Part shown: positions 12,550-20,691 of the stretch, one piece after another | Layout: the number at the start of each line of letters is the position of its first letter | How positions within the stretch are numbered: the first letter of the stretch is position 1 | Assembly (NCBI GenBank): GCA_003165595.1 | Contig: PLWQ01000028.1 | Span: 62,001 to 126,000 of the forward strand | Direction of reading: 5' to 3' | Source of the DNA: Fibrobacterota bacterium | GTDB lineage: Bacteria; Fibrobacterota; Chitinivibrionia; Chitinivibrionales; FEN-1185 | Length of the DNA: 64,000 nt | Position numbers and translations under genes: made by a program | The notes under the pieces: generated by a model | Told to the model about the DNA's origin: nothing | The model's database searches: none | What the model saw: only the letters and a program-made list of their open reading frames with translations

Positions 12550-12623
12550 TCTGCCTGTTTGCCGCTTCCTATTGCCTCGCCCCCGACTGTGCCATGGCTG
12601 ACGACATCCCGCTTCCCCATTGT

Positions 12624-12653
12624 TTCACTCGCCCGGTCATTATATACTATAAT
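12624..12653 (+). promoter_or_regulatory. Possible promoter at the GH57 gene
   Basis: A perfect TATAAT (12648-12653) lies 4 bases before the GH57 ATG at 12658. TTCACT at 12624-12629 sits 18 bases upstream as a weak -35. If used, the mRNA would start at the ATG and be leaderless, as predicted for the XRE-cupin gene. The -35 is poor, so confidence is low. Confidence 0.4.
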
Positions 12654-12657
12654 AGTT

Positions 12658-14586
12658 ATGAAGCGCCATTCCATCGCCTTTCTCATTCACCCGTACAAGA
12701 ATTCCCTGGTTCCCAAGGGCACGTTCCGGGAAGCGGTGAACGCCTTTGCCCAGACCGTGCTCGACATTGGCGCTTCGTACCAGAACATCCGTCTCAACCT
12801 GGTGATGCCCGGCTACTTCCTCGAAGCCCTTGACCCCATGCTTCTCCTGCAACTTCGCGAGATGCACAAAAAGGGGGCGATCGAGTGGTTGACAACAGGC
12901 TATACCGAACCGTTCCTCAGCTTCTCCCCCCAGTGGCTGGTCAACGAGAACCTCCGGCATGGCATCACGTCGTTCCAGGAATACGCGGGCAGCAAGCCCG
13001 CGGGGTTTGTCCCGCCGTTTTCCAACTGGGAACCGTCGTACATAGATGTGCTTACCGACGCGGGAATCCAGTACAATGTGCTGTCCCGTTCGCTGCTTGC
13101 CAGTCAGTATCGATCAAAGCTCGGCTATTGGGTCACCGAGTTTGCCGGATCGTCAACCGTGCTGTTTCCCGTGCATTCGGTGTATCCTTCCACCGTGGCC
13201 GGCACCATGGAGACGTGGATCCAGGACCAGTTCGCGGCCGACCCCGGTGGTTCCGTTCCGGTCAAGCTTCTCTGCATCGACTTTTTGTGCCCGCTGCTCA
13301 CGCAGGACATGTCGGTCACCCAGCAGGGCCTCAAGGAAGCGGCCGCCGTGTTCGACAGGCTACTGCTCACCTATCAGCCGATTCGTTTTACCGAGTTTCT
13401 GTCGTCCAACCCGCCGCTCGGGCTCATGTACCTTCCGCAGAGTCTGGTGCTCCGGCGCGACGACTCGGATACGGCACCACATTTTCTCAACTACCTGCAT
13501 TCGTTCGACCAGGTGGGTGTCATCCAGCGCAAGCTGATGGACATTGCAGACAACATCGGCTCGCGCCGGGACAGCAAGCACGTGGAGCCGCACAAGAAGA
13601 CCTTGTTTTTCGTCGCGGACATCAACCGGTATATCCCCTCAAAGTCAAGCGGTTTTACCCGGCTCCACGACCGCATGTGGTGTTATGAAAAGCTCATTGG
13701 CGTCGAACAGGAACTTCGCGAGCGCGACAATATCAGCGGTGGCCAGATCCGCATCGCCGATTTTCTCCGCAATGGCGGCAAGAGCATCATCATGACAAAC
13801 AAGAACCTTGCCGTATATGTCGATCACAGGAACGGCGGCAGCGTGTTCGAAATCGATTTCAGGCGCAGGCGGTACAACGTGTGCGCGGGATACAATCCGT
13901 CGCGGCATGCGCTGCCCATGGTGATAGAATCCGGGCTTTCCTATACCATGTTTGTTGACCACCTCGTGGATACCGCGACGCAGGCGTCGCAATTCAGGGC
14001 CAAGACCGCCGCCGAGCTCGGCGATTTTTACTGCGGCGCATACGACTACAAGATCAAAAAAACCGCCGACGGCATCAAGGCCTCGCTTCACCGTCAGGGT
14101 TCGCTTGTGCAAGGCGACAAGAACTGTCCGCTTTCGATGGAAAAAATGCTCGGCCTGGAAAAAGACCATCCGGCTATACCTTTTGTCTACCAGATAACCA
14201 ACAACTCACTTACTCCGTACCTTTTCCGTCTGGCCGTGGAACTTACCATTTCGCTGCCGGGAATTGCGACCGACTCTGCGTATCTCCTTAACAACAGGCA
14301 GAAGATCATGGAGCTTCGGACCGGACTGGTGGAGCTTCCCCAGGTGACGCAGTGGGTTGTGGCCGATCCCTCGTGCGGGGTGATGGTCGTATGCTCACTA
14401 CAGAAACCCGTGGATGTCTGGTGCTATCCCGCGGTGCCGCCGGGCGTTGATCCGCAGCAGGCGGAGGCCCTTACCATCGTCATCACGGCGCCAATCACCC
14501 TTGACGGCAGCGGTATGTGGTCGCTTCTGGGCAAACTGCAGTTCAAACGCGTGGCACTTGCCGGGAAACAGCCCGATGAGATCTGA
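12658..14586 (+). CDS. Glycoside hydrolase family 57 protein (4-alpha-glucanotransferase-like)
   Basis: The 642-residue protein follows the GH57 plan: an N-terminal barrel with IEWLTTGYTEPFLSF (about 81-95) and the nucleophile-region motif NWEPSYIDVL with the WE pair near 125, then beta-sandwich domains like those of the Thermotoga/Thermococcus 4-alpha-glucanotransferases. The family HQP motif reads HPY here, and I could not place the acid/base Asp with certainty. No signal peptide, so it likely acts on cytoplasmic glycogen or maltodextrins. The ATG at 12658 begins the family similarity. It overlaps the STAS gene by 11 bases. Confidence 0.82.
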   Translation: MKRHSIAFLIHPYKNSLVPKGTFREAVNAFAQTVLDIGASYQNIRLNLVMPGYFLEALDPMLLLQLREMHKKGAIEWLTTGYTEPFLSFSPQWLVNENLRHGITSFQEYAGSKPAGFVPPFSNWEPSYIDVLTDAGIQYNVLSRSLLASQYRSKLGYWVTEFAGSSTVLFPVHSVYPSTVAGTMETWIQDQFAADPGGSVPVKLLCIDFLCPLLTQDMSVTQQGLKEAAAVFDRLLLTYQPIRFTEFLSSNPPLGLMYLPQSLVLRRDDSDTAPHFLNYLHSFDQVGVIQRKLMDIADNIGSRRDSKHVEPHKKTLFFVADINRYIPSKSSGFTRLHDRMWCYEKLIGVEQELRERDNISGGQIRIADFLRNGGKSIIMTNKNLAVYVDHRNGGSVFEIDFRRRRYNVCAGYNPSRHALPMVIESGLSYTMFVDHLVDTATQASQFRAKTAAELGDFYCGAYDYKIKKTADGIKASLHRQGSLVQGDKNCPLSMEKMLGLEKDHPAIPFVYQITNNSLTPYLFRLAVELTISLPGIATDSAYLLNNRQKIMELRTGLVELPQVTQWVVADPSCGVMVVCSLQKPVDVWCYPAVPPGVDPQQAEALTIVITAPITLDGSGMWSLLGKLQFKRVALAGKQPDEI

Positions 14587-15205
14587 AGCGCTCGATATAA
14601 CGATTGAAAGCAGGGGTCGCTCGATTTGGCTCTTTTTGTCCGGGCCGTTTCACGCCGAGCAGGTCCCGAGCATGCGCGAGAAGATTGCCGGGCTCATCGA
14701 CGACGGCAACCGGCACCTTGTTGTGAACCTCGAGAACGTGATTGACATAGACGAATCCGCGATGCAGATGTTCCTCGCACTCCTCAACAGCATGCGCGGC
14801 AAAGGCGGCGACATCTGGTTTGTCTTTCGAAACGAGAATGTTTCCCGGGCCTTTTCGCCGTTCAGACACATCTTCTCCATTTACCCCGACGTCCAATCGC
14901 TGCCAGCAGGCGGGTTTCTGGGCAACTTGCGCCGGCGAAGCAGGGTGCTTGCCAGGAAGACCGGCATCAGGCTGTCCCGTCCCGTTGCGCTTACCCTGCT
15001 CATTACGCTGTTCGGATGGATACTCACGCTCATGTTCATCATCCACCTTCAGAACCAGCGGATCCGGAAGCAGGAAACCGAAATGCGCGCGCTCACCGAA
15101 TGGAATCGTACCGCGGCCGCGGAAATCAAGGAGCTGCACGACCGCATGAAGCCGCTCGAACAGCTCGGTGTGCTCAAAGACACCCCGCCCAGGAAATCCC
15201 CGTGA
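14576..15205 (+). CDS. STAS-domain protein with C-terminal membrane anchor
   Basis: The 209-residue protein begins with a STAS (anti-sigma-antagonist) domain (about 5-105): HLVVNLENVIDIDESAMQMF holds the strand-loop where SpoIIAA-type proteins carry the phosphorylated Ser (here D-E-S). A membrane helix follows (about 138-160) and then a short coiled coil. Membrane attachment suggests it assembles with an envelope partner and is not a free anti-anti-sigma factor. It overlaps the GH57 stop by 11 bases and the transglycosylase start by 4 (GTGA), so the three are co-translated. Confidence 0.8.
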   Translation: MRSEALDITIESRGRSIWLFLSGPFHAEQVPSMREKIAGLIDDGNRHLVVNLENVIDIDESAMQMFLALLNSMRGKGGDIWFVFRNENVSRAFSPFRHIFSIYPDVQSLPAGGFLGNLRRRSRVLARKTGIRLSRPVALTLLITLFGWILTLMFIIHLQNQRIRKQETEMRALTEWNRTAAAEIKELHDRMKPLEQLGVLKDTPPRKSP

Positions 15206-15963
15206 ACCCGTCGCACCCCTCCCCAGGCCTGCGCCTGGGCCTTCTCATTCACGGGAACAAGATCTGGATCTCCGAGTTCGTCAGCATTTTCCTGATTTCC
15301 GCACTCCTGCTCGCGTTCTCCGCCCTTACGTTTCTCATTGTCCTCGACGAGGCGATCATCCGGTCGAACGACCGCCGCATTCTGGCGCTCAACGCCGGCA
15401 AACAGTCACAAGAGAAGGACCTGGCGAACCTCGCGTCAAAGGAGAGAATAATTAACGCCATGCGAGCAGAGCTCGGCGACAGGCTCTCGCGCCAGACCTA
15501 TTGGCAGCTTTCGGACTTGGTGCGTAGCAGCAGTTCCACGTTCGGCTACGATCCGCTGCTCCTGCTCGCGGTGATCGATGTGGAAAGCAAGTTCTCGCCG
15601 CGGGCCATGGGCCAGTACAAAAACGGCGAAGCCAGCGGGGCCTTCGGACTGATGCAGCTCAAACTCGAAACCGCGCAGTCAATCGCCGCGAGCCTGGGCC
15701 TGACCGTGCGCAGCAACTCCGACCTCTTTCGGCCGGATGTCAACGTTGCGCTGGGAGTCGCCTACCTCACCCAGCTCATCGCACAGTTCAAGAGTTTCAA
15801 ACTGGGCCTGCTCGCCTACAACCAGGGGCCGGGCGTTATTTTGGAACAGCTCGCAACGCAGCACCCCCTGTCGATTGACTATTACCACAAGGTGCTCAGG
15901 AGTTTCTACCGGTTCCGCGCGATTACGGATAGTCTGGGGGTTGTCAGGGATTTGAGTAAATGA
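15202..15963 (+). CDS. Membrane-anchored lytic transglycosylase (SLT domain)
   Basis: The 253-residue protein has one N-terminal membrane helix (about 28-50), a short helical linker and an SLT/lysozyme-like domain (about 95-250) with LLLAVIDVESKFSPRA, where the E of VES is the expected catalytic acid, then GAFGLMQLK, VNVALGVAYL and LLAYNQGPG. It would cleave peptidoglycan in the periplasm. The GTG at 15202, with AGGAAA upstream and a GTGA overlap with the STAS gene, is preferred over the longer frame. It is convergent with the gene at 15969, only 5 bases away. Confidence 0.9.
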   Translation: MNPSHPSPGLRLGLLIHGNKIWISEFVSIFLISALLLAFSALTFLIVLDEAIIRSNDRRILALNAGKQSQEKDLANLASKERIINAMRAELGDRLSRQTYWQLSDLVRSSSSTFGYDPLLLLAVIDVESKFSPRAMGQYKNGEASGAFGLMQLKLETAQSIAASLGLTVRSNSDLFRPDVNVALGVAYLTQLIAQFKSFKLGLLAYNQGPGVILEQLATQHPLSIDYYHKVLRSFYRFRAITDSLGVVRDLSK

Positions 15964-15968
15964 GATGG

Positions 15969-17930
15969 TCAGTACATAGTAAAGTGGGCCGGTCCCCTCT
16001 TAGCCGCGAGTTCCGCAATAACCTTGATCACCCCCATCCCGATTGCCACCGGTAGTATCCCGAATAAAGGAATCAGCAGCGTCGAGCACAGCGCCATGCC
16101 GAGCGCCCCGCCGAAAAGGTCGGCCGCGTACAGATCTCCGAGTCCCGTACGCGCCTTTGACACGATCTGCCCCCCGCACAGCACGCCGGCGCCGGCATGA
16201 AACAGGTAGAACAGAACCGGCGGAAGGGACGGGAATAGCGCCAGCAGCGCGAGGCTGCAGGCGCAATACGCGCCGATTGCGAGATCGGAAAACGGCAGTC
16301 TGCGGATGAGTGAGCCTGCCGCGAATCCCGCGGCAAGCGCCACGAGCAGCAGCGACACATGCGAATAGAGCGCCCCGCAGGTGGATTGATACAACAGAAG
16401 AATGGCCACCGAATACGCGCCGAGCACCAGTCCGCTTGTTCCAACCGAGAAAGCCGCGCGTGTCCGGGGCACCAGCCATGCGGCGACGCAGAAGCATGCG
16501 ACAAGCAGCGCTATCACAAGACCCAGCTGATTTCCGAACAATTCGATCCAGCTCTGCAATCCGAGCAGCAGCGTGACCGGCCTGTCGCTGGTATTGACAA
16601 TGGCGGAAGCAGGCGATCTGTTTGCTTCCTGAATGCGATCGTCCGACACTGCCGGCACGATCGAGGACGAAAGATACTCGGTCGGCGCGCGGACGCTCCA
16701 CTTCGTGGAGAGCGGTTTATCGGACGCCATGAACGTGTACCCTTCGCCGGGGAAAACCAGAACGTGCGGGAACACCGACCCCAGGGTCGAGTAGAGCGCA
16801 TTATACAGTTTTCGCTCCGCCGGCGAAAGGTAGTTCTCGGAAAACGGCAGCGTAAACGTGACAAGGCCGGAATCCGCGAGAAAAGTCTTGACATGAGAAA
16901 GGAACGAGCGCGTGTAGAACCTGTTTGAGGCGGCGGTGCGGGGAATGCCGGTTCCCAGGAACACGATATCGTACCGAAGGCGCGGACGAAACGTTTCGAC
17001 TGCCGCAATGCGGCCGCCCTGCCGGGCGAACGCCGGCTCCGTTTCCACGACGTCAACGGAACAGCCCGTGTACTTTGCGATCTCGGCAGCCTGGCCGCGG
17101 TCGAACACCACAAGCGCGCGCCGGACAGCCATCCGCTCCCCCATGGGAATGTGGACGGCCTGTTCGAGAAAGGGACGCTGCATCGTTGATTTGTACAGTG
17201 TGCCGTTTTGCAGAAATGTGGTGTCGCTCCCTGTGCCGATCGGCAGGATTTCACCTTCGTGCCCGTAGATAATGCCCTGCGCGGGTACGTCGTATTTCCA
17301 CTGAACCGAGACGCGGTCGAACGCGGGAACGAACGCGAGGGCAGCCAGGCACACGAGTGCAGCCCACGGCGCGCGCCGGCACACTGCCAGCAGCGGAAGC
17401 CCGGCTATTACCGCAATGAGGCTGTTGGGCGTCTGCACGAGAACGCCTGCAAAAACACACAGCGCTCCCGTCACGGTGCCTGCATTTTCCCATCCGTAGA
17501 GCCTGCCGGGCCGCCCGCCGCGGGAAAACAGTGCGCCGAGCACCAACCCGTTTGCAAATGAAAATGGACATTCGCTTGCGGCAATCACGGCCAGCATCTG
17601 GAGCGGGCCCAGGAGTTCCCCGGGCAGGAACACCAGGCGGCTTGCACGGATGGCCGTTATTCCCAGAGCGGCGCACACAGCAAGCGCGGCGGCCGCAACC
17701 CCTGGCCCGACCTGGGCCGTAGCGCGCGAACCAAGCACGGTGCCCGCACCTGCCGCCAATACCCACGCCGATAGTATCATGCCAACGGAAAGTTCGTTGC
17801 CGGAAAAAACCGAAAGATACTCGCGGAAATAAACACTTTGTAAGGCGGCCGAAAACAGGCCCACCGCGAATAGGAACGGCACCGGGCCGCTCCTATTCGT
17901 GGAAGTGAACGGCACGGTAGCGCTTGACAT
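15969..17930 (-). CDS. Polytopic membrane protein with spermidine-synthase-like domain
   Basis: The 653-residue protein has about six membrane helices at the N-terminus (20-205), a soluble aminopropyltransferase-like domain (about 215-430; LQNGTLYKSTMQ, VVETEPAF, YDIVFLG) and more helices (about 465-640; DLYAADLFGGALG). Such fused MFS/spermidine-synthase proteins are common but poorly characterised. The GGGDG nucleotide-binding motif of true spermidine synthases is replaced (ALVVFDRGQAAE), so ordinary polyamine synthesis is doubtful. Its start overlaps the AMMECR1 gene by 38 bases, making it the fourth gene of the AmmeMemoRadiSam operon. Confidence 0.82.
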   Translation of the reverse strand: MSSATVPFTSTNRSGPVPFLFAVGLFSAALQSVYFREYLSVFSGNELSVGMILSAWVLAAGAGTVLGSRATAQVGPGVAAAALAVCAALGITAIRASRLVFLPGELLGPLQMLAVIAASECPFSFANGLVLGALFSRGGRPGRLYGWENAGTVTGALCVFAGVLVQTPNSLIAVIAGLPLLAVCRRAPWAALVCLAALAFVPAFDRVSVQWKYDVPAQGIIYGHEGEILPIGTGSDTTFLQNGTLYKSTMQRPFLEQAVHIPMGERMAVRRALVVFDRGQAAEIAKYTGCSVDVVETEPAFARQGGRIAAVETFRPRLRYDIVFLGTGIPRTAASNRFYTRSFLSHVKTFLADSGLVTFTLPFSENYLSPAERKLYNALYSTLGSVFPHVLVFPGEGYTFMASDKPLSTKWSVRAPTEYLSSSIVPAVSDDRIQEANRSPASAIVNTSDRPVTLLLGLQSWIELFGNQLGLVIALLVACFCVAAWLVPRTRAAFSVGTSGLVLGAYSVAILLLYQSTCGALYSHVSLLLVALAAGFAAGSLIRRLPFSDLAIGAYCACSLALLALFPSLPPVLFYLFHAGAGVLCGGQIVSKARTGLGDLYAADLFGGALGMALCSTLLIPLFGILPVAIGMGVIKVIAELAAKRGPAHFTMY

Positions 17931-18603
17931 CCGCTGTTTTCCATCCGTCGGCGGGCAGGCCGCCCTTGACGGCTAGGTTTTCGAGAAACTCCACCTTGTC
18001 GGGAAGCTGGTCCCACACCTGCGGCAGAAAGGTGGACTGGTGATATCCTTTGGAGAGAATGATGCCGTCTTTGCCGGGTTCCAGTTTGTTAAGAAGATCC
18101 TGCGGGCTGGCGTACGGCAGGGGCTCGGGCCTGGTGAGCACCGATACTTCTACCTCAATGTCGGCGAGTTCGGCCGGCGTTACCTGCGGGAAGCGCGGGT
18201 CCGCAAGTGCCGCGTTCTTTGCGTTGTCGATCACGGCTTCAAACAGCGGCTTTATCCCTTCGATATACCCGATACAGCCCCGCAGACGCCCGTGCTTGGT
18301 GAGCGTCACAAAGCAGCCGCAGGAATCCATGGTTATCGCCGGAGGATTGCCCGGCACAACCGGAGGCCGACCCCGCACCGACGCTTCCAAGTTCTGGCGC
18401 GCGAGTTTGAGCAGAAATACTTTGACGTCCTGCGGAAGATCGTTGCAACCTTCCCCGGCAGTTGTGTGGTCGGCGCCAGCCTGCGCGCCGTTGCTGATTT
18501 TTACGTCGGTCTTGTCCGACGAGGCGTTACAATCTGCAACATTCATCGGCAGTACTCCAAGGATAAAGACGATAAGGGCAGGTGCGGCCACACGGTATTT
18601 CAT
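17893..18603 (-). CDS. AmmeMemoRadiSam system protein A (AMMECR1 domain) with N-terminal signal
   Basis: Residues about 50-235 are an AMMECR1 domain, with the near-invariant LRGCIG motif in RLRGCIGYIEG, DPRFPQVTPAEL and an IEVEVSVL strand. Family proteins normally begin at the domain; here about 45 extra residues start with MKYR and a hydrophobic run (VAAPALIVFILGVLPM), reading as a Sec signal or membrane anchor. GGAGG lies about 11 nt before the ATG at 18603. The biochemical role of the family was not established when I learned of it, though it co-occurs with MEMO and a radical SAM protein. A spacing of 38 bases separates it from the MEMO gene. Confidence 0.9.
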   Translation of the reverse strand: MKYRVAAPALIVFILGVLPMNVADCNASSDKTDVKISNGAQAGADHTTAGEGCNDLPQDVKVFLLKLARQNLEASVRGRPPVVPGNPPAITMDSCGCFVTLTKHGRLRGCIGYIEGIKPLFEAVIDNAKNAALADPRFPQVTPAELADIEVEVSVLTRPEPLPYASPQDLLNKLEPGKDGIILSKGYHQSTFLPQVWDQLPDKVEFLENLAVKGGLPADGWKTADVKRYRAVHFHE

Positions 18604-18641
18604 GGAAAGGTTGACCTCCATCGCTGCGCGCGGGCCGGAAA

Positions 18642-19544
18642 CTATTCCTTCGGCGCGGCGGGCTTCTTCACATATGCAATTGCGGCATATCCCACGACCC
18701 GGTCTTCGGAGCCGTAATGCGGAGCGGTTTCGTAGGACGTACGGGCTTCGAGAAGAAGGGGAGACAGCGCCATCATTCTTGCAAGGCGCATCACAATACG
18801 AATAGGCATTTCGCCGCATGCGTCAATGTCGCCCTGATCATTCCCCGCAAGGATCAGCGAGATTGTTGTATCGTCGACGGCCCGCGCCTCCTTTTGCGCA
18901 CGAAAGTGAGACAAGTCGGAGGAGGCAATAACCACGGTGCGCTCATCGATGAGCGGATAAAGCATATCCGCGGCCTTCTGCGGGTCGATGCCGTGCACGA
19001 TGAGGGGAACAATTTTGAAGGACGGCAGCAGAACTTGCAAAAACGGAACCTGCACCTCAATGCTGTGTTCCGGGGCGTGGGCCGCGGGGTCTTCGTACAC
19101 GGGCCGGTTCTGAAGGAGTTTCTCGACGCGCTCCACATCCACCGCGACCCTGCCGAGCGGCGTTTCAAACCATTCCGCGCCTGCGGTCGCGATTCCTCGT
19201 ACCGGCACACGGTGCGGCGGGCCAAGCACAATGGCGGTCGTGACTGTCCGGTCGAGCGTTGCATAGCCGATACCCGCCACCGGCCCGGAAAAAATATAGC
19301 CCGCGTGCGGGCAAATGAGCATTTTGGGCCCGGAAGCGAGCTTCTTACCGCAGGACAGGTACGCTTCCACGTCCTTCCGCAGTTCGAACGGATTGTCGGA
19401 GTAGAATTGACCCGCAACTGCAGGCATTCGAACCCGGTCCTGCACTTGGCCCGGAACCGTTGCTGCCATAAGAGTTACTCCCGCGAGAAGCCGGGCAGCG
19501 GCGCAAAAACGACCCGCGCTCCTGGAGCCCGGCCGGACCTTCAT
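18642..19544 (-). CDS. AmmeMemoRadiSam system protein B (MEMO1 family)
   Basis: The MEMO domain (about residue 38 on) shows RMPAVAGQFY, HAGYIFSGPVAGIGYATL, EHSIEVQVPFLQ and SSDLSHF, the conserved His/Asp pocket of the family, which is related to class III extradiol dioxygenases. Chosen at ATG 19544, it has about 38 residues before the domain, including a basic start and the hydrophobic RLLAGVTLMAATV, like a signal peptide. An internal ATG at the domain edge, with AGGA upstream, would give a cytoplasmic form. It follows the radical SAM gene by 52 bases and precedes the AMMECR1 gene. Confidence 0.9.
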   Translation of the reverse strand: MKVRPGSRSAGRFCAAARLLAGVTLMAATVPGQVQDRVRMPAVAGQFYSDNPFELRKDVEAYLSCGKKLASGPKMLICPHAGYIFSGPVAGIGYATLDRTVTTAIVLGPPHRVPVRGIATAGAEWFETPLGRVAVDVERVEKLLQNRPVYEDPAAHAPEHSIEVQVPFLQVLLPSFKIVPLIVHGIDPQKAADMLYPLIDERTVVIASSDLSHFRAQKEARAVDDTTISLILAGNDQGDIDACGEMPIRIVMRLARMMALSPLLLEARTSYETAPHYGSEDRVVGYAAIAYVKKPAAPKE

Positions 19545-19596
19545 GCACGCACCGAAGGTAAATATACTCCCGGCTTTGGAAAAGAGGGATTGCCCG

Positions 19597-20691
19597 CTAG
19601 GTCCAGATGCCCTTGATGACGGTCCCGCAATAAGTGCATTTGCCGTCTTTGATGGCAACCTTCTTGATGGAATAGCCGTCACGCACGACAACGGGCTTCT
19701 TGCACGACGGGCAATAGGTGCTCGAATCGATTTCGGCGACATTTCCCACATACACGTACTTAAGGCCTTCCTCCTGCGCGATCTTCTGCGCGCGCCGGAG
19801 AACATCGGTGGGCGTCGGGTAGAGGTTTTCTAGTTTGTAAAGAGGGAAGAACCGGAGGAAATGCAGCGGTACCTCGGCGCCCAGGTTCTGTTTGTGCCAC
19901 GTACACATGCTGCGGATCATGGCAAAATCGTCGGTCCAGGTGGGAACCACGAGGTTGGTGACCTCAACCCATATCCCGAACTTGAGCGCGTTGGTTATCG
20001 TGTCCATCACGGGCTGGAGCTTGGCGCTGTTGAGCTTGAGGTAGGTCTCGTTCTTAAAGCCCTTGAGGTTGATATTTGCCGCATCCATGTACGGTGCCAG
20101 TTCCTTGAGTGGCGCTTCGTTGATGTAGCCCGCCGTCACCCAGATGTTCTTGAGGCCCGCCAGCCTGGCCAGCTTGCACGTTTCGAGAACGTATTCGTAC
20201 CACACAATAGGCTCCGAATAGGTATAGGAAATCGAGGTGCAGCCTTGGCGTTTCGCTTCCTCCACCACCTTTTCGGGCGGAAGGCAGGTAGTTTCGGTGT
20301 CCTTGGGAAATTGTTGACTTATGGTATAGTTCTGGCAGTTGAGACACCGCAGGTTGCACCCGGCAATGGCTAGCGAAAAGGACTTTGATCCCGGCAGCAT
20401 GTGAAAAACGGGCTTCTTCTCGATGGGGTCCACGTGCACGGCGCAGGGGTTGGCATAGGCATTGTTGACAAGCGTTCCTTTGACGTTTTCCCGCGTTCGG
20501 CAGATACCGATGGCGCCCGGCCGTAAGATGCATTGGTGGGGACACAGTTCGCATGCCACGGCGCTGTCGCCCATGGCTTGCCAGTACATCGCCGTCTTGC
20601 GCGGGGCCTCGGGTTTGGCGAAACAGGCCGGTGCGACGGCCATGCCCAACATTGCGGCCGAGGATTGAAGAAGTTCTCGTCGGGTGATCAT
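19597..20691 (-). CDS. AmmeMemoRadiSam system radical SAM enzyme with Tat-like signal
   Basis: The 364-residue protein carries the radical SAM CxxxCxxC motif as CNLRCLNC (about 113-120), a preceding Cys-rich CELCPHQC segment, and a C-terminal zinc-ribbon-like pair CPSC...CTYC. Its start MITRRELLQSSAAMLGMAV matches a twin-arginine leader (T-R-R-E-L-L), followed by a hydrophobic stretch and A-x-A. Tat exports folded proteins with cofactors, so a periplasmic Fe-S radical SAM enzyme is possible. The substrate of the AmmeMemoRadiSam system was unknown to me. The ATG at 20691 is chosen for the leader; no clear ribosome binding site is visible. Confidence 0.9.
   Translation of the reverse strand: MITRRELLQSSAAMLGMAVAPACFAKPEAPRKTAMYWQAMGDSAVACELCPHQCILRPGAIGICRTRENVKGTLVNNAYANPCAVHVDPIEKKPVFHMLPGSKSFSLAIAGCNLRCLNCQNYTISQQFPKDTETTCLPPEKVVEEAKRQGCTSISYTYSEPIVWYEYVLETCKLARLAGLKNIWVTAGYINEAPLKELAPYMDAANINLKGFKNETYLKLNSAKLQPVMDTITNALKFGIWVEVTNLVVPTWTDDFAMIRSMCTWHKQNLGAEVPLHFLRFFPLYKLENLYPTPTDVLRRAQKIAQEEGLKYVYVGNVAEIDSSTYCPSCKKPVVVRDGYSIKKVAIKDGKCTYCGTVIKGIWT

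Follow-up and report, generated by a model that had tools for sequence, protein, structure and literature searches.

MEMO and AMMECR1 belong to protein families that reach as far as humans and have no settled molecular function. Work from 2019 on Memo-Ammecr1 systems (the PCAD-Memo superfamily, in JBC) reportedly linked Memo to nucleotide-base and isoprenoid modification, which we treat as a lead only. To our knowledge, radical S-adenosylmethionine (SAM) enzymes, which complete the AmmeMemoRadiSam trio, are thought to act only inside cells. AmmeMemoRadiSam was barely mentioned in the literature searched, and in the literature found no reaction of the family was described. Human MEMO1 binds Fe2+ or Cu+ and is described as intracellular (PMC11918410), AMMECR1 is a top marker of anaerobes (PMC13386939), and a 2020 paper refers to the 2019 Memo-Ammecr1 study (PMC7159879). 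Here, we analysed a stretch of 64,000 nucleotides from a Fibrobacterota bacterium (assembly GCA_003165595.1, contig PLWQ01000028.1, positions 62,001 to 126,000; hereafter the window), whose minus strand carries open reading frames (ORFs) for a radical SAM protein (rSAM), MEMO, AMMECR1 and a membrane protein. This operon probably encodes an exported form of the AmmeMemoRadiSam system.

Across genomes, the most likely reading of the sequences is that they encode an extracytoplasmic radical-SAM system conserved in many phyla. A sequence-only reading of the window had raised this possibility as an unusual one, and it gains support here and extends much more widely than that reading described, with localisation inferred. 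We favour it because conserved leaders occur on all three soluble proteins across phyla, because the topology of the major facilitator superfamily (MFS) protein puts a synthase-like domain outside, because leader and membrane protein associate and mark one ancient clade, because the leader type follows TatC, and because transmembrane electron carriers lie near the rSAM or are fused to it.

The four genes, and the 38-base overlap between the membrane-protein start (17930) and the AMMECR1 stop (17893), lie where the sequence-only reading had placed them. The features, with transmembrane helices abbreviated as TM and AlphaFold 2 as AF2, are as follows:

19597-20691, minus strand: rSAM ORF (TIGR04337, 7e-103)
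20617..20691 (end approximate), minus strand: Tat-type (twin-arginine) leader of the rSAM, MITRRELLQSSAAMLGMAVAPACFA, with RR motif and hydrophobic stretch
19597..20616, minus strand: radical SAM enzyme part of the rSAM ORF, AmmeMemoRadiSam (TIGR04337), with CxxxCxxC at ~20335-20358
18642-19544, minus strand: MEMO ORF (TIGR04336, 2e-68)
19431..19544, minus strand: Sec-like N-terminal leader of MEMO, faint in the window but evident in relatives
18642..19430, minus strand: MEMO domain (TIGR04336, PF01875)
17893-18603, minus strand: AMMECR1 ORF (TIGR04335, 1e-56)
18523..18603, minus strand: Sec-type leader of AMMECR1, judged with relatives, with a GGAGGT-like site just upstream of the ATG
17893..18522, minus strand: AMMECR1 domain (TIGR04335, PF01871) with LRGCIG motif, its last 38 bases inside the next gene
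15969..17930, minus strand: 14-TM MFS-fold membrane protein with an inserted spermidine-synthase-like domain (AF2 model, fold matches, alignment A2)
16527..17321, minus strand: domain with a spermidine-synthase-like fold, inserted between TM7 and TM8, for which lysine plus arginine (K+R) counts predict an extracytoplasmic position; ligand motifs eroded

The rSAM, MEMO and AMMECR1 each exceed the curated cut-offs of TIGR04337, TIGR04336 and TIGR04335, the rSAM scoring 344 bits against a cut-off of 220, and the TIGR04336 MEMO and TIGR04335 AMMECR1 share one operon with it; the operon copy is the single AMMECR1 of its genome. In an alignment of 20 members (A1), the rSAM residues C82, C86 and C89 (CxxxCxxC) are invariant, as are its N-terminal and C-terminal Cys quartets. 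The His/Asp/Cys residues of the MEMO domain are likewise conserved, and the exported members retain their key cluster and metal residues (Cys and His) intact. By sequence, the closest solved structure to the rSAM is pyruvate formate-lyase activating enzyme (8e-15), and human MEMO1 structures match the window MEMO at 4e-15.

The rSAM begins with MITRRELLQSSAAMLGMAVAPACFAK, in which an RR pair is followed by a hydrophobic stretch. These are features of a Tat substrate, both contained in MITRRELLQSSAAMLGMAVAPACFA, and the genome encodes TatC (2.8e-67). Operon-linked rSAMs of relatives in the same taxonomic order likewise start with TRR or close variants and a hydrophobic stretch. A comparison of the rSAM leader with that of the same-genus relative gives difference frequencies of 0.28, 0.19 and 0.47 at codon positions 1, 2 and 3, and the DNA upstream of the rSAM ATG, judged by eye, has no visible similarity; because the changes fall mostly on position 3 and the upstream DNA lacks visible similarity, the leader is coding. 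The Tat-type leader proposed in the sequence-only reading is borne out. Homologues that start at the domain edge, which that reading had regarded as speaking against export, were found, but these are additional gene copies located away from the operon in the same genomes, leaderless and with MKEA-type starts. One such TIGR04337 paralogue lies on another contig of the window's own genome (C6, L070 6987-8150), has neither MEMO nor AMMECR1 nearby, and groups with the leaderless copies of relatives. A scan of Tat-type leaders for lipoboxes gave matches in a minority only, and we therefore do not claim a lipoprotein type for the window leader.

For the partner proteins, the sequence-only reading had proposed Sec-type or anchor N-termini. 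This is clear for AMMECR1, which begins with MKYRVAAPALIVFILGVLPMNVADC; MEMO, which begins with MKVRPGSRSAGRFCAAARLLAGVTLMAATV, has the weakest leader of the three in the window and a clear one in the same-genus relative. In many relatives, MEMO and AMMECR1 form one fused chain, often lipoprotein-like, and at most leader-type loci MEMO or MEMO-AMMECR1 has its own leader. Where AMMECR1 is a separate gene (the window, L072, L081 and L109) it has its own Sec-type leader, and where it is fused behind MEMO it has none; in L129, where the ORF runs off the contig edge, and L137, where it lies behind an edge-cut MEMO, a leader was not seen. On the same contig as the operon (C41, L071 6112-7089) the genome encodes a second MEMO with a Sec-like leader, directly behind an ORF for a Crp/Fnr-type regulator and with no rSAM or AMMECR1 beside it.

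These patterns bear on the idea that the apparent leaders merely anchor the proteins in the membrane or result from misplaced start codons, with all catalytic domains cytoplasmic. The weak MEMO leader in the window, and the replacement of RR by KR in some Bacteroidota, would fit it. We nevertheless consider it improbable: the leaders are coding and conserved, the basic N-termini ahead of the hydrophobic stretch predict catalytic domains outside, the AMMECR1 leader is present in the unfused operons and absent behind MEMO, the domain of the membrane partner is predicted outside, and the leader type tracks TatC.

This last relationship was seen in a sample of genomes that included many incomplete metagenome-assembled genomes (MAGs): TatC was found in 13 of 15 genomes with RR/KR leaders versus 4 of 12 with Sec or anchor leaders (Fisher p 0.007). 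Furthermore, a TatC gene lies near the Tat-type rSAM in L092 and L115. The MAG contigs of these two loci are labelled archaeal (Aenigmatarchaeota and Altiarchaeota), labels that may be binning errors. Sec- or anchor-type leaders replace RR/KR in 13 leader-type rSAMs, 11 of which have a DsbD_2 protein nearby or fused, three of these also with FMN_bind and Fer4_5 domains. Such a carrier was found at only one of 52 RR/KR-type loci (L138, FMN_bind/Fer4_5); the DsbD_2 and FMN_bind/Fer4_5 profiles were built from leader-type loci, and remote versions near leaderless rSAMs could escape them. In L139, DsbD_2 and rSAM share one ORF. Two further loci, L126 and L110, look like split fusions: the segment expected at the N-terminus of the rSAM (SPHEARYW and KPQTAKYW, respectively) instead closes the FMN_bind/Fer4_5 protein, and the rSAM ORF begins just before its first Cys. 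In L126 (2020-2030) the two ORFs meet in an ATGA overlap with the rSAM sequence continuous across it, which may reflect gene fission, a frameshift or an assembly error; in L110 (7798-7995) they are separated by about 200 bases with short inverted repeats, as if a once-fused gene had been interrupted by an insertion. The Sec/anchor type occurs mostly in genomes in which TatC was not found, and export thus seems to persist by a different route.

The carriers are also relevant to a second idea, in which the rSAM acts in the cytoplasm before export, modifying or activating a partner or cargo, and the leaders only carry finished parts out; AMMECR1, for example, might be modified or activated at its LRGCIG motif, much as glycyl-radical activases act on their targets. 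The cytoplasm offers both SAM and low-potential electrons, pyruvate formate-lyase activating enzyme is the closest relative with a solved structure, and in Prevotellaceae the rSAM stays inside while MEMO-AMMECR1 is exported. However, the rSAM itself is exported in most members of the clade, and transmembrane electron carriers near it or fused to it would be purposeless. Moreover, the Sec leaders of MEMO-AMMECR1 imply passage in an unfolded state, which would prevent any complex assembled with the rSAM in the cytoplasm from being exported as such. On balance, we regard chemistry before export as unlikely.

Turning to the membrane protein, a 42-member alignment (A2) contains 14 hydrophobic segments, seven on each side of a soluble domain. 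K+R residues, counted without the termini, are more numerous on predicted-inside than on outside loops in 42 of 42 sequences (mean 12.7 versus 1.95 per sequence), and the N- and C-termini are predicted to lie inside and the synthase-like domain outside. In a fold comparison with the AF2 model of the window protein (pLDDT 91.8), the helices match MFS carriers (VMAT2; Z 26.0, root-mean-square deviation (rmsd) 3.5, 313 residues) and the inserted domain matches T. thermophilus SpeE (3anx; Z 22.6, rmsd 2.9, 239 residues). No Pfam or NCBIfam model matched the window protein, including PF01564 at E 0.1 and NF037959 ('fused MFS/spermidine synthase'). Its relatives match PF01564 at 3e-18 to 2e-28, and when eight of them were scanned with NF037959, five passed, one fell below the cut-off and two (L153 and the same-genus L072) were unmatched. 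Of the ligand motifs, the window's clade has lost the GGG loop and the DGR (DGR/D-x-x-D) segment, both of which many relatives from outside the operon-type clade retain. The description of this domain as a degenerate aminopropyltransferase therefore holds for the window, its identity resting on relatives and fold. Because the protein fails the fused MFS/spermidine synthase models and lacks the ligand motifs, we do not file it as a member; a plain aminopropyltransferase identity was set aside, the motifs being eroded and the domain facing outward. Viral contigs, when searched, yielded no relatives of the membrane protein.

When other genomes were searched for the same four-gene order, as the sequence-only reading had suggested, relatives from the same taxonomic order were found to keep the arrangement rSAM–MEMO(–AMMECR1, often fused to MEMO)–membrane protein. 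Across 41 genomes (the window's own and relatives), we identified 19 orthologues of the membrane protein, full-length or edge-cut, with E <=1e-80 versus >=5e-44 for other matches. Comparison of contigs and positions placed all 19 by AmmeMemoRadiSam genes, 17 near an rSAM and 2 beside AMMECR1 (MEMO-AMMECR1); in these two cases (G035 and G003), the contig that carries the membrane protein next to AMMECR1 is not the one with the rSAM. The rSAM of G003 (L075) is of the leader type, with AMMECR1 and the membrane protein together on another contig. The proposal that the membrane protein is a transporter or substrate partner of the system is in part strengthened by this linkage and by the MFS fold.

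A scan of a named genome collection yielded 80 loci, in Bacteroidota, Thermodesulfobacteriota, Omnitrophota, Ignavibacteriota, Latescibacterota, Planctomycetota, Lentisphaerota, Chlamydiota, Armatimonadota and others. Taking these with the relatives, and a distance of <=5 kb, 43 rSAMs have both leader and membrane protein, 8 the leader only, 2 the membrane protein only and 35 neither; that is, the membrane protein is within 5 kb of 43 of 51 leader-type rSAMs versus 2 of 37 leaderless ones. These counts follow hand correction of the automatic leader calls (L083, L090, L101, L105, L131, L161 and L162 added, L042 and L169 removed, L066 and L121 set to unknown); the raw table read 42/8 with a leader versus 7/35 without. 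Five changes suffice to place the leader on an rSAM tree of 132 rows, and the leader-bearing rSAMs form essentially one clade (SH-aLRT 90) with a few losses.

It is very improbable, in our judgement, that the membrane protein is instead a membrane aminopropyltransferase or polyamine carrier that is a chance neighbour with no role in the rSAM system. Matches of relatives to PF01564, some passing the NF037959 cut-off, and the presence of VMAT amine carriers among the top fold matches would suit such a protein, but the window's clade lacks the motifs for aminopropyl transfer, decarboxylated SAM (dcSAM) would be missing for a catalytic domain on the outer side, every one of the 19 orthologues adjoins AmmeMemoRadiSam genes, and the linkage holds across phyla.

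On the sequence evidence, the rSAM is made with a Tat leader, which implies that it should cross the membrane folded and carrying its iron-sulfur cluster, and MEMO and AMMECR1 carry Sec-type leaders. The 14-TM MFS-type carrier is predicted to turn its synthase-like domain outward, to the same side as these three proteins, and at most loci of the Sec/anchor type transmembrane electron carriers (DsbD_2, or FMN_bind with Fer4_5) are encoded nearby or fused to the rSAM. Under the extracytoplasmic reading, radical-SAM chemistry would take place outside the cytoplasmic membrane in anaerobes, on an envelope substrate and with MEMO, probably an Fe(II) protein, and AMMECR1. The MFS protein may supply or remove a small molecule; we would first suspect SAM or the nucleoside derived from it, since the outer domain belongs to a fold that binds (dc)SAM and methylthioadenosine (MTA), and carriage of the substrate or product would be nearly as likely. 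The full proposal, that this branch performs extracytoplasmic radical-SAM chemistry with electrons from dedicated transmembrane carriers and with an MFS protein that moves SAM or a SAM-derived nucleoside, seems to us evenly balanced. The problem of oxygen is eased because AMMECR1 is strongly tied to anaerobes (PMC13386939).

Several points weigh against this reading. Signal peptides were called by visual inspection and simple hydropathy, the neighbourhood of the window operon showed no electron carrier, and the eroded ligand motifs weaken the idea of SAM supply in the window's clade. We know of no SAM outside the cytoplasm, and of no machinery for the cluster insertion outside that Sec-exported members would need. 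Since the leader marks essentially one clade, its pairings with the membrane protein are not independent events and reflect old conservation rather than repeated gain; a test on independent pairs had only four pairs, too few for any power, and the loci from outside the window's taxonomic order are nearly all MAGs. In addition, six Bacteroidota loci (L097, L100, L140, L144, L145 and L167) have a leader on MEMO-AMMECR1 and none on the rSAM, so that in Prevotellaceae and a few other Bacteroidota the parts of the system seem not always to share one compartment, cases which the extracytoplasmic reading leaves unexplained. In L140, L144 and L145 (Prevotellaceae MAGs) and L167 (a Coprenecus MAG), the leaderless rSAM match ends before the region of the C-terminal Cys quartet.

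If the reading is correct, it gives radical-SAM chemistry a new location, and this would be, as far as we know, the first radical-SAM enzyme to work extracytoplasmically. Our literature search for extracytoplasmic radical SAM found no description, the 2019 PCAD-Memo review lying outside that search. Restriction of one bacterial branch to the envelope would greatly narrow the range of possible substrates of MEMO and AMMECR1, arguing against RNA or DNA for that branch. It would also raise testable questions: the source of SAM, the upkeep and reduction of a [4Fe-4S] cluster outside, and whether the MFS/spermidine-synthase-like protein carries SAM or a nucleoside. The spread of the clade over many phyla, whose bacteria are mostly uncultured, suggests that it may mark a process common in cell envelopes.

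Among the surrounding genes, plus-strand ORFs at 12559-15963 encode a large protein, a STAS-like protein and a lytic transglycosylase, a trio that recurs in L072 and L081. NadD-like (CTP_transf_like) and TPR/YfiO proteins are recurrent neighbours that we judged to be local synteny, outside the system.

How, then, does the locus compare with known systems? The carrier domains near the Sec/anchor subtype are of the same kinds as those of extracytosolic electron-transfer systems (DsbD, NapH/NosR-like and FMN_bind; PMC8238504), whose description does not mention radical SAM, AMMECR1 or spermidine; here, the carriers adjoin the rSAM or are fused to it. With pyruvate formate-lyase activating enzyme the window rSAM has the radical SAM core in common, and it differs in its two extra Cys quartets, its export leader and its MEMO and AMMECR1 partners; no glycyl-radical enzyme was found among the flanking genes scanned at the window operon. 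The window MEMO belongs to the same family as human MEMO1, and differs in being predicted to be exported and in being encoded with an rSAM. The membrane protein combines an MFS fold with a spermidine-synthase domain, as do the fused MFS/spermidine synthases (NF037959) and the membrane polyamine aminopropyltransferases (NF002956/PRK03612); however, it matches neither model, its domain, which follows TM7 and precedes TM8, has a predicted outward orientation, its ligand motifs are eroded, and it is tied to AmmeMemoRadiSam genes. Finally, the system resembles AmmeMemoRadiSam (TIGR04335/04336/04337) in that its three proteins pass the cut-offs with key residues intact, and departs from it in the export leaders on all three, in the conserved fourth membrane partner, and in an rSAM whose clade is separate from most leaderless members. 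Judged by these sequence features, it is a distinct, putatively exported variant within AmmeMemoRadiSam.

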